Shown here piece after piece: positions 5,575 through 9,943 of a stretch of 64,000 nt of DNA. This DNA is from Acidobacteriota bacterium. GTDB taxonomy: Bacteria; Acidobacteriota; Terriglobia; Terriglobales; Acidobacteriaceae. The notes beneath the pieces are model-generated. The model was not told the DNA's origin and made no database searches. It saw only the letters and a program-made list of their open reading frames with translations. The number at the start of each line of letters is the position of its first letter. Position 1 is the stretch's first letter. The DNA lies in assembly GCA_021781795.1 (NCBI GenBank), contig JAJXWA010000001.1:496001-560000 (forward strand). The letters are read 5' to 3'. The position numbers were made by a program, and so were the translations under genes.

Positions 5575-6930
5575 CTATTGCGGCCCATACTCCGCGGCGA
5601 ACAGCTCCGCATATTCGTTGGGATTGCTGAACCCAGCAAACTGGCCGTAGGTCATGCCAGCCAATGCCACACCCTGACTGCCAAGGTTGAGAAAGATCGG
5701 CGTCGATGCGCCGGAAAACATGCGCGGTAACTCCTTGCCCGTGCCCAACTGCTGCGCCCAGATCGCCGATCCGGTTGACGACACCTTCGCCAGAAACACA
5801 TCGTCTGTGCCAGCCGTGGCGCCCGTGACGAGCGCGCCGTTGGTGATGCCGGCAACGTACAGGTTGTCGCTTGAATCTGCCACAATCCCCTGCCCAGGCA
5901 GATTCTGTGTGCCCGCACCGAACTGGTAGCTCCAGGCAATGCTTCCTGAAGAGGCATTCATCTTCATCACCTGAATCTGGGTGCTAGATGGCGATGTGCC
6001 GGTCTGACCTTCCAGGAAGAGTTGACCATCTGTCGTGGCAGTGATGGCCGACGGCGTGAAGCCGGCCAAACCCGGATTTGTATTCGACTGCTGAACCCAG
6101 ATGTTGCCGCCGGTCGAGGCACTGAATTCTCCAACGAATGGAAGCGACGCCATCGAACCTGCGCTGCCGGGGAAGGCGCCACTTGTAAAACCGGTAGCGT
6201 AGATATTGCCGCTCTTATCCACTGTGATGCTGCTTAATCCGTCCTGCGCGCCGCTGCCAAACGTCATAAACCATATCTGATTGCCATTAGAGTCGAACTT
6301 TGAGAGATATAGATCCTGGCCGCTTGCCCCATCGGCGATTTCGCCGCCCACGATGATGTTCCCGCTGGAGTCGCCCGTTACTGATGCCACCGTAATGTTC
6401 TTCGTTGAAGGGTATTGATATATCCAGATCAGGTCTCCAGCCATGTCGAAATTGCCCAGGAAGACCTCGCCGATTCCACTGGGATTGGAAAAACCGGGAT
6501 AGGCGCCGAAGGTTGTTCCGGCAGCAATTACGTTGCTGCCGACATTCACGAGTCCATCAATCGTGTCGCCCTTGCCGCTCGTCAGTTCCCTGCTCCACAC
6601 CGGGCTGCCCGTGCCCGTCAGTTCAAAAACTACTCCTTTCAGAACGCCCTCAGGGACGGTGTATCCCGGCAGATTGCCTGCTGTGTAACCTGCCACATAC
6701 ACATTTTTCAGGCTGTCCTGCGCAACGCCGGTGACGGTATCGCCCTGCTGCGTGGTCGCGTCGTAGGTGTTCGTGCCGAACTCCGTTGCGAACAAAAAGG
6801 ACGAACCGGCAGTAAAGGTCAGCACGGAATTTGAGCCGGTCGAGTTACTGGTCGAGTGCGACGAACTGCTGCAGCCTGTCGCGAAGAGAGCGACGCCTGC
6901 GAGAAGGAATATGCCGGTCAGGCTTTTCAT
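5575..6930 (-). CDS. secreted lipoprotein with SBBP-type beta-propeller repeats
   Basis: Lipobox LLAGVALFATGCSSSS; repeated units (DSSGNIIVGGEI, DKSGNIYATGFTSGAFPG, DSSDNLYVAGITNGAL). Confidence 0.8.
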   Translation of the reverse strand: MKSLTGIFLLAGVALFATGCSSSSHSTSNSTGSNSVLTFTAGSSFLFATEFGTNTYDATTQQGDTVTGVAQDSLKNVYVAGYTAGNLPGYTVPEGVLKGVVFELTGTGSPVWSRELTSGKGDTIDGLVNVGSNVIAAGTTFGAYPGFSNPSGIGEVFLGNFDMAGDLIWIYQYPSTKNITVASVTGDSSGNIIVGGEIADGASGQDLYLSKFDSNGNQIWFMTFGSGAQDGLSSITVDKSGNIYATGFTSGAFPGSAGSMASLPFVGEFSASTGGNIWVQQSNTNPGLAGFTPSAITATTDGQLFLEGQTGTSPSSTQIQVMKMNASSGSIAWSYQFGAGTQNLPGQGIVADSSDNLYVAGITNGALVTGATAGTDDVFLAKVSSTGSAIWAQQLGTGKELPRMFSGASTPIFLNLGSQGVALAGMTYGQFAGFSNPNEYAELFAAEYGPQ

Positions 6931-7125: not shown

Positions 7126-7210
7126 GCGGAAGTGGTGAAATTGGCAGACACACCATCTTGAGGGGGTGGCGCCGCAAGGCATGCGGGTTCAAGTCCCGCC
7201 TTCCGCACCA
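7126..7210 (+). tRNA. tRNA-Leu (anticodon GAG), CCA encoded
   Basis: Acceptor GCGGAAG/CTTCCGC, anticodon stem CCATC/GGTGG with loop TTGAGGG, class II variable arm GCC-GCAA-GGC, T arm GCGGGTTCAAGTCCCGC, 3' ACCA. Confidence 0.95.
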
Positions 7211-7785: not shown

Positions 7786-9024
7786 ATGTCCTTCCGATCC
7801 GTCTTCATCGCAGTTACGGTTGCCTTTGGCCTGATTCTGGGAGCCTTCCTTGTCAATCGAGCCCGTCCTCGGGTTGAGACGCAACAACCTACATCCGACT
7901 TTGTGCTGGCCAGCGGCAAGTGCGCCGAGTGCCACGCGCGCCTCCAGTACTCCGTCGTGCACGAGTACGAGATGAGCGCCCACGCCAGGAAGGGTGTCAA
8001 TTGCCTCGACTGCCATCAGCCTGGCCCCGGCCAGAAGAAGATGGACCATCACGGCTTTGTCATCGCCACGCATCTCACGGCAGGCAACTGCCGCAGTTGC
8101 CACGAGGGCATCTATCAGGAATTCCTGCGCAGTCGCCACGCCGCGCCGAGTTGGGCCGCCATCTACGGCGAGAAAGGCCTCAGCCCTGAGCAGGTCGCCT
8201 TCAGCGAGCAATATCAGCCCGGGGGCACAAAGCGTCCTCCGCATCCCTTCGTCACTGCAGAAGGCTCATCGGCGATGGCCTCCGGGTGCGAGCAGTGTCA
8301 CTCCATCGGCAAGCCGAACGATGACGGCACCATCGGCACCTGCACTGAATGCCACGCCCGCCACACAAGCTCGGTCGCGCTTGCACGACTGCCCTCTACA
8401 TGCGCCCAGTGCCACATGGGCCCGGACCACTCTCAGATTGAGATCTACAACGAGTCCCGGCATGGCGTGATGTTTGCCGCGCAACGTGACCTGCTCAAGC
8501 TCGACGCCAATCCCAAAACCCTGACCACCCGAGATATGTTTGTGCCCACCTGCGCCACCTGCCACATGAGCGGCATCAACGGCCTCAAGGTGACGCACGA
8601 CCCCTCCGAGCGCCTCGGCTGGTATCTGGCGGATGCCATCAGCACACGGCGGCCCAACTCGCTGCAGGCCCAGACCAACATGAAGCAGGTCTGCGAGCAG
8701 TGCCATACCTCCGCGCAGATTGACCGCGTCTATGCGCAGGCCGATCAGGTCGTGGCCAGCACCAACGCCAAGGTGCAGGCCGCGAAGAACATCATGGATG
8801 GCTTGCATAAAGACGGTATCCTTACTGGTCCGCCCTTCAGCAACCCCATCGACTTTACCTACTTCGACCTCTGGCACTACGACGGACGCACCAGCAAACA
8901 TGGCGCCTTCATGGGTGGCGCGGACTTCGTGCAGTGGCACGGCAACTATGGGTTGCTGCAAAAAACAGTTGAGCTGCAGCACGACGCCGATGAACTGCGG
9001 AGGGCGCATGCAGCTCGCCGATAA
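7786..9024 (+). CDS. octaheme c-type cytochrome, hydroxylamine oxidoreductase-like family
   Basis: Eight CXXCH motifs: CAECH, CLDCH, CRSCH, CEQCH, CTECH, CAQCH, CATCH, CEQCH. C-terminal YFDLWHYDGRTSKHGAFMGGADFVQWHGNY resembles HAO family; N-terminal hydrophobic anchor. Confidence 0.82.
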   Translation: MSFRSVFIAVTVAFGLILGAFLVNRARPRVETQQPTSDFVLASGKCAECHARLQYSVVHEYEMSAHARKGVNCLDCHQPGPGQKKMDHHGFVIATHLTAGNCRSCHEGIYQEFLRSRHAAPSWAAIYGEKGLSPEQVAFSEQYQPGGTKRPPHPFVTAEGSSAMASGCEQCHSIGKPNDDGTIGTCTECHARHTSSVALARLPSTCAQCHMGPDHSQIEIYNESRHGVMFAAQRDLLKLDANPKTLTTRDMFVPTCATCHMSGINGLKVTHDPSERLGWYLADAISTRRPNSLQAQTNMKQVCEQCHTSAQIDRVYAQADQVVASTNAKVQAAKNIMDGLHKDGILTGPPFSNPIDFTYFDLWHYDGRTSKHGAFMGGADFVQWHGNYGLLQKTVELQHDADELRRAHAARR

Positions 9025-9943
9025 GGCCATCCGCGCGCTCGGCCGCATCCTTGCTCTGCCCGCGCTCCAGTGGGTCTTCGATATGGAGCTGCTGCTCGAG
9101 CTCTTCGTCGCGGCCAACCTCGCCGTGTTGGCGGGCGACATCGTGCTTGCCCATTCGGTCAACCACTTCCGCAACCCGGCCGAGTACATTCCGCTTTACT
9201 TCTCTGCCGCCGCGCCAGTTGTGCTCCTCGTCCTGGACCTGCTGCGCTGGCGCTGGGGCTTTCGCGCTGCCTGGCGCGATGTGGGCCTGCTGGTCGGCGG
9301 CCTCTCGGTGCTCGTCGGTCTTGGCGGCGTGCTCTATCACCTCCAAAGCAGCTTCTTTTTGCAGCACACCGTCGCCTCGCTCACGTATGCCGCGCCCTTT
9401 GCCGCGCCGCTCGCCTACACCGGCCTCGGCTTCCTGCTGCTCGCCAATCGCATGGTCTCGCCGCGCACCATCGAGTGGGCACGATGGGTCGTCCTCCTCG
9501 CCACCGGAGGCTTCTTCGGCAACTTCGTCCTTTGCCTCACAGACCACGCCACCAATGGCTTCTTTCTCAAGACCGAATGGATTCCCGTTCTCTCCAGCGC
9601 TCTGGCCACCGGCTTTCTCATTGTGCCGGTCTTGCTCCCGGTCACGCGCCGCTACCTTGACGTCTGCCTCGGCGTCCTCGGCGTGCAGGCCTTGGTCGGC
9701 ATCCTCGGCTTCTGCTACCACCTGCGCATGAACCTGATGGAACCCGGCGCGAGTCTCTTTGAGAAATCCGTCAACGGTGCCCCGCCCATGGCCCCGCTGC
9801 TCTTTCCCAACCTCGTCGGCCTCACCCTCATCGGGCTATGGGAGCTGGCCGCCCACCTGCCCGACGAGTCAGCCGTCGATCTGAGCCTCTTCGGCCGCGC
9901 TCTCGCGCTCGCGCCTGCTCCGCTTCCCGACCCGGAAATCTGA
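9008..9943 (+). CDS. polytopic integral membrane protein of unknown function
   Basis: Multiple hydrophobic segments. ATG at 9008 overlaps the cytochrome stop by 17 nt; the track's upstream start (8720) lies inside the cytochrome in another frame. Confidence 0.8.
   Translation: MQLADKAIRALGRILALPALQWVFDMELLLELFVAANLAVLAGDIVLAHSVNHFRNPAEYIPLYFSAAAPVVLLVLDLLRWRWGFRAAWRDVGLLVGGLSVLVGLGGVLYHLQSSFFLQHTVASLTYAAPFAAPLAYTGLGFLLLANRMVSPRTIEWARWVVLLATGGFFGNFVLCLTDHATNGFFLKTEWIPVLSSALATGFLIVPVLLPVTRRYLDVCLGVLGVQALVGILGFCYHLRMNLMEPGASLFEKSVNGAPPMAPLLFPNLVGLTLIGLWELAAHLPDESAVDLSLFGRALALAPAPLPDPEI

Follow-up and report, generated by a model that had tools for sequence, protein, structure and literature searches.

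A Duplicated Four-Helix Membrane Protein Encoded with an Octaheme Cytochrome in Acidobacteriota Is a Candidate Quinol Dehydrogenase

INTRODUCTION

Which membrane protein supplies electrons to an octaheme c-type cytochrome (OCC) of the HAO/OCC family? For reductive HAO-like cytochromes, the proposed donors are NapC/NrfH-like, or no dedicated partner is known in some genomes. One proposal for the epsilon-proteobacterium Nautilia is that CycB, a NapC/NrfH-type protein, connects HaoA with the quinone pool (PMC3701875). The window, which is the 64,000-nucleotide stretch of acidobacterial DNA analyzed here, encodes an OCC whose gene overlaps that of a membrane protein with eight transmembrane (TM) helices (8-TM protein). 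An initial annotation suggested that the two genes were translationally coupled and that the second might encode a new kind of membrane or quinone partner for an HAO-like protein. We found no report of this gene pair in the open-access literature.

RESULTS

The two genes overlap in a conserved geometry

The OCC gene (7786-9024, plus strand) encodes a 412-amino-acid protein with eight CXXCH motifs, and the 8-TM gene (9008-9943, plus strand) encodes a 311-amino-acid protein. According to the initial annotation, the second gene starts 17 nt inside the first in another frame. The ORF coordinates confirmed this. The ATG at 9008-9010 is within the OCC ORF in a different frame, and the OCC stop codon is the TAA at 9022-9024, giving a 17-nt coding overlap (9008-9024, plus strand). 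A Shine-Dalgarno-like GGAGG within the OCC coding sequence (8999-9003, plus strand) precedes the ATG with a spacing of 4 nt. The open frame of the 8-TM gene reaches further 5' (TTG at 8720), and protein conservation starts at the ATG at 9008.

The overlap and the position of the GGAGG recur in relatives. In about 25 complete family-level loci, the distance from the 8-TM ATG to the last base of the OCC stop codon is 11 to 17 nt, in most cases 14 or 17, and a GGAG-type site is just 5' of the ATG. Because the spacing of the ATG and the GGAG-type site recurs across these loci, the overlap is not a chance arrangement. This conserved geometry also makes the predicted translational coupling of the 8-TM gene to the OCC gene well supported, as had been suggested. 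The 8-TM gene is under purifying selection, with a dN/dS of 0.11 to 0.17 in comparisons with three relatives.

The cytochrome is probably reductive

The OCC has a TM anchor at its N terminus (approximately residues 5 to 25), followed by CXXCH motifs beginning at C46, C73, C102, C168, C186, C206, C256, and C303. These eight motifs and its similarity to HAO profiles (PF13447, E value of 9.3e-26) place it in the HAO/OCC family. Its best PDB match was the Ignicoccus protein 4qo5 (E value of 1.6e-26), its hemes are ordered as in HAO, and the conserved pair Asp214-His215 is present. The mean pLDDT of its predicted structure was 46. With Ruegeria HAO as a bridge to Nitrosomonas europaea HAO, the tyrosine that makes the P460 cross-link (Tyr467 in N. 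europaea numbering) aligned with OCC Gln383 (codon 8932-8934). This position was Gln in 25 of 25 paired OCCs, which thus lack the residue that marks the oxidative, P460-bearing HAO class. According to a recent study, a reductive function is predicted for HAOs without the cross-link tyrosine and is backed by experiments for some of them (PMC12758564). Because Gln replaces this tyrosine, the OCC is probably reductive.

The pair is conserved in Acidobacteriota

The initial annotation held that a lack of co-conservation would argue against a partnership. Our search covered 200 family genomes and a sample of 297 from the phylum. Wherever the upstream DNA could be read, the genes were strictly co-conserved: an OCC was directly upstream of every OCC-type 8-TM homologue. 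The pair was also present in several other Acidobacteriota families, with 47 to 60% identity between 8-TM proteins, and paired relatives within the phylum extended down to 31% identity. From the side of the cytochrome, all nine OCCs that matched at an E value of <1e-170 in the phylum sample had the 8-TM partner beside them, as did two that matched at 1e-110 (loci L059 and L060, in which the partner was 31% identical). It was absent from the approximately 1.5 kb of flank examined at more distant OCC loci (L061-L079 and L091-L100). A search of plasmid records with one divergent OCC-type 8-TM protein found no match and thus gave no evidence of the pair outside Acidobacteriota. OCC and 8-TM protein distances were correlated (r = 0.92 for 300 pairs), as expected for joint inheritance, with shared species history contributing to this value.

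Two genomes of the same genus have an incomplete pair. One has no OCC and encodes only an 82-amino-acid C-terminal fragment of the 8-TM protein (L011:1501-1746, equivalent to approximately 5.9-6.2 kb of L124) adjoining NnrS-like (weak match), ScdA/YtfE-type, and hemerythrin genes. A pair has probably been lost here, leaving this fragment. In the other (genome G191, L007 near 3220, minus strand), the 8-TM gene is open and the OCC gene has a frame change at approximately residue 119-120, which is a sequencing error or a recent inactivation.

The 8-TM protein is a duplicated unit with four invariant histidines

An AlphaFold2 model of the 8-TM protein (pLDDT 77, pTM 0.79) had eight long helices; its confidence was low in parts of the proposed periplasmic loops. 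Homology between residues 25-152 and residues 153-290 (hhalign E value of 8e-14, 35% identity over 95 columns) shows that the protein is a duplicated 4-TM unit. In the model, repeat 1 comprises TM1 to TM4 (residues 26-150; 9083-9457, plus strand) and repeat 2 comprises TM5 to TM8 (residues 154-283; 9467-9856, plus strand).

The initial annotation had proposed looking for heme b ligands among histidines in the TM helices. Exactly four histidines were invariant in 16 divergent members: His49 at the end of TM1 (codon 9152-9154), His111 at the end of TM3 (9338-9340), His180 at the end of TM5 (9545-9547), and His238 at the end of TM7 (9719-9721), all on the plus strand. Each is near the C-terminal end of its helix, and the four helices run in the same direction. 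Lys and Arg were most numerous in the loops after TM2, TM4, and TM6 and least numerous in the loop after TM5. This distribution is modest evidence for an N-in topology, which would put the four histidines at the periplasmic face, together with the OCC. A bis-His heme b in a four-helix bundle is usually held by one histidine from each of two parallel helices, as in cytochrome b, b561, and NarI. The four invariant histidines are as expected for one putative bis-His heme b in each bundle.

The 8-TM protein matches no described family

The 8-TM protein contains no CXXCH motif. This and its eight TM helices rule out a quinol dehydrogenase of the NapC/NrfH/CycB type, which has multiple CXXCH motifs and one TM helix; the initial annotation had already argued this from the missing motif. 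Sequence searches of Pfam, NCBIfam, and PDB with the 8-TM protein found no match. In particular, no transporter family was matched in Pfam or NCBIfam; assignment to one had been named in advance as evidence against a partnership. Weak matches to KefC (0.0056), Rhomboid, HlyIII, and phage holin were far below cut-offs and not common to members, and we rejected them. No NCBIfam HaoB model matched; a HaoB gene adjoins Ruegeria HAO. A similarity to NrfD/PsrC-type quinol proteins had also been suggested, but the Pfam NrfD profiles did not match the 8-TM protein up to an E value of 1 or the 16 members up to 0.1. Nor did the Pfam profiles of known membrane cytochromes b (b561/Ni-hydrogenase, NarI, formate dehydrogenase gamma, and cytochrome b/b6).

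Fold comparisons were similarly unproductive. The best Foldseek match to the model had an E value of 0.37, and all matches were poor. Chains of NrfD, NarI, and cytochrome b561 were absent from the fold matches, a result that speaks neither for nor against a known fold. The top VIA match was 3dby, which is soluble and consists of two four-helix bundles (Z of 15.9, rmsd of 3.9, 233 residues aligned). Since this Z is slightly above the level of unrelated helical bundles, we treat it as probably a generic double four-helix bundle match. No solved diheme cytochrome b structure was matched in the PDB sequence or fold searches.

A homologous protein is encoded with GMC dehydrogenases

Other Acidobacteriota encode 8-TM proteins of approximately 320 to 370 amino acids whose genes immediately precede those for gluconate 2-dehydrogenase subunit 3 and a GMC oxidoreductase. 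Plasmid records of Paraburkholderia and Nitrobacter have the same order. Profiles of the OCC-type and GMC-type proteins matched each other with an E value of 5e-11 and 97% probability over 220 to 228 columns, and all four histidines were aligned. Neither profile matched PDB by sequence. The window's 8-TM protein has the features that define the GMC-operon family, which are two 4-TM repeats, each with HxxxxF and GxxGxxxH, and then PxxAP. We aligned 53 repeats from all groups, including a single-repeat protein of Deinococcus. Only the two histidines were invariant across the superfamily, along with a Gly N-terminal to the second histidine and a Pro C-terminal to it.

The GMC operon is conserved in several phyla (L014-L016, L013, L049, L141:4815-5732, and L142:4749-5753), with genes for a TPP enzyme, an enolase-like protein, the 8-TM protein, gluconate 2-dehydrogenase subunit 3, and the GMC oxidoreductase, often together with SDR and GH15 genes. 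Its 8-TM protein is unnamed in Pfam and NCBIfam; a weak match of one relative to DUF6962 was far below the cut-off and not common to members. In Deinococcus, the corresponding protein is a single 4-TM repeat of 157 amino acids with two histidines (L140:4004-4477). A 132-amino-acid ORF that is weakly VKOR-like (E value of 4e-5, below the cut-off) precedes and overlaps its gene (L140:3622-4020).

The same module is beside two unrelated redox enzymes. Therefore, its presence is best explained by a role in membrane electron transfer, which this homology supports for the 8-TM protein, and a channel for a nitrogen compound is disfavored.

Other OCCs have quinol-linked neighbors, and some pairs have nitrogen-related ones

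More distant OCCs have other partners. In Desulfosarcina and Desulfobaculum, OCC relatives with 30% identity have a NapC/NirT cytochrome gene directly upstream, and NorR and NO reductase genes are also near the Desulfosarcina OCC. In two Acidobacteriota loci (L061, assigned with Pfam, and L062), the gene for a different OCC is flanked by those for a bc-type cytochrome b and a porin-like protein, which suggests a further route for electrons to an OCC. Thus, the 8-TM protein appears to occupy the place of a quinol-linked partner. In loci L065-L067, a different OCC is downstream of genes for a heme-copper subunit (COX1, possibly NOR-like) and a cupin-like protein.

An NO reductase gene (PF22085 and COX1; qNOR) is divergent from and next to the OCC gene in 5 of 25 loci, with only a truncated piece in L119. 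ScdA/YtfE-type, hemerythrin, and radical-SAM genes follow the pair in several loci. A radical SAM/SPASM protein, TIGR04053, related to the heme b synthase AhbD and to NirJ (L026:11331-13022), is encoded repeatedly near the pair where ScdA/YtfE-type genes are also present. An NnrS gene is directly after the pair in L117, and there was a weak NnrS match near the L124 relic. Genes downstream of the pair in L110, L111, and L118 looked NnrS-like by eye, had no Pfam match, and were not counted.

In the window, the pair has secG and tRNA-Leu upstream, an MBL-fold hydrolase gene downstream, and no adjacent nitrogen genes. A probable lipoprotein with SBBP beta-propeller repeats (5575-6930, minus strand) adjoins tRNA-Leu (7126-7210). 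Elsewhere, the genome encodes a NorB-type protein, on a different contig, as well as proteins for cytochrome c assembly. Because of the window neighbors, the nitrogen link is indirect for this genome.

DISCUSSION

Strict pairing, four invariant histidines, and homology to a protein of GMC operons all favor the idea of a new membrane or quinone partner for an HAO-like protein. With moderate confidence, we propose that the 8-TM protein is a diheme-b quinol dehydrogenase that replaces NapC/NrfH for an OCC that reduces nitrite, NO, or hydroxylamine. From sequence and gene context, we infer the heme b, the quinol, the direction, and the substrate. The two genes would encode a single unit for respiration or detoxification. 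Two b-type hemes would be bound by the 8-TM protein near the periplasmic face. Within each four-helix bundle, two histidines on parallel helices that are diagonal to each other would coordinate one heme (His49 and His111 in repeat 1, and His180 and His238 in repeat 2). The 8-TM protein would oxidize quinol and pass electrons to the periplasmic, membrane-anchored OCC, whose heme 4 would be the site where a nitrogen oxide is reduced, whether nitrite, NO, hydroxylamine, or more than one of these. A protein unrelated to NapC/NrfH-type tetraheme cytochromes would then do their job for reductive HAO-like proteins.

The same complex might run in reverse. Hydroxylamine, or another nitrogen compound in reduced form, would be oxidized by the OCC, and the 8-TM protein would reduce quinone, as happens in the forward hydroxylamine:ubiquinone redox module. 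The intact HAO heme order and Asp214-His215 pair would suit this, and the GMC relatives of the 8-TM protein would run in the oxidizing direction. However, we consider it unlikely, given that every paired OCC has Gln in place of the cross-link tyrosine of oxidative HAOs and that the NO reductase and ScdA/YtfE-type neighbors fit reduction.

The four histidines could bind a non-heme metal such as iron or copper, and the 8-TM protein would then be a membrane metalloprotein that handles NO or transfers electrons. Acidic residues are near the first histidine of the repeats (Asp44, Asp179, Glu59, and Glu190), and the best aligned structure, 3dby, is from a group that we take to be metal-binding. However, in the GMC family the positions of Glu59 and Glu190 are Met or Gln while the histidines stay invariant, and the 3dby score is barely above background, which leaves this reading rather doubtful. 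We give about as little credence to an assembly, anchoring, or transport factor (for substrate or product, for example) that has no part in electron transfer. Such a role would accord with the lack of a match to any recognized redox family, but the OCC already has its own TM anchor, the homologue is found with GMC dehydrogenases of quite different substrates, which argues against a nitrogen-compound channel, and the residues that the superfamily repeats keep are only the two histidines, Gly, and Pro.

Several points weigh against our preferred reading of a diheme-b quinol dehydrogenase, among them the lack of a match to a solved diheme cytochrome b, the low-confidence loop stretches of the model, the modest positive-inside signal, and the absence of nitrogen genes next to the window's pair. 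Both hemes would be on the same side of the membrane, whereas in most diheme b subunits the hemes span it. Also, the window's genome encodes a NapC-domain protein elsewhere, so another donor is possible and the 8-TM protein may not be the only one. More broadly, the 8-TM protein may represent an undescribed superfamily of diheme-b electron-transfer modules, each built from a duplicated 4-TM bis-His unit and plugged into two or more periplasmic enzymes that are unrelated to each other, including the reductive OCCs of Acidobacteriota and, in several phyla, GMC dehydrogenases, as an alternative to NapC/NrfH and NrfD. We regard this wider proposal as evenly balanced. Acidobacteriota are abundant in soils, and the pair gives this phylum a concrete candidate, open to experiment, for a further type of donor and ties it to NO and nitrite reduction there. 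An electron-transfer role is also suggested for a hypothetical protein of GMC operons in Acidobacteriota, Deinococcota, Actinomycetota, and Pseudomonadota.

A close counterpart of the 8-TM protein is that of the GMC operons (L013-L019, L049, L141, and L142). It has the same two-repeat architecture, four invariant histidines, and Y/W-x-P and PxxAP motifs. However, its partner is a GMC-type dehydrogenase rather than an octaheme cytochrome, and it does not keep Glu59 and Glu190. NrfD/PsrC proteins also have eight TM helices as two four-helix bundles and partner a periplasmic redox protein, but to our knowledge they lack hemes, which the invariant histidine pairs suggest here. The 8-TM protein also has no Pfam similarity to them and no Fe-S partner protein. 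The cytochrome shares the OCC family with that of Ignicoccus hospitalis (PDB 4qo5) and with anammox and AOB HAOs, but it is a shorter protein with a TM anchor at its N terminus. A further close parallel would be the epsilon-proteobacterial HAO and its reverse hydroxylamine:ubiquinone redox module (PMC3701875), in which an HAO-like protein without the P460 tyrosine also has a proposed membrane link to the quinol pool. There, the partner is a NapC/NrfH-type tetraheme c-type cytochrome, whereas here it is an 8-TM protein with no CXXCH motif and no sequence relation to it.
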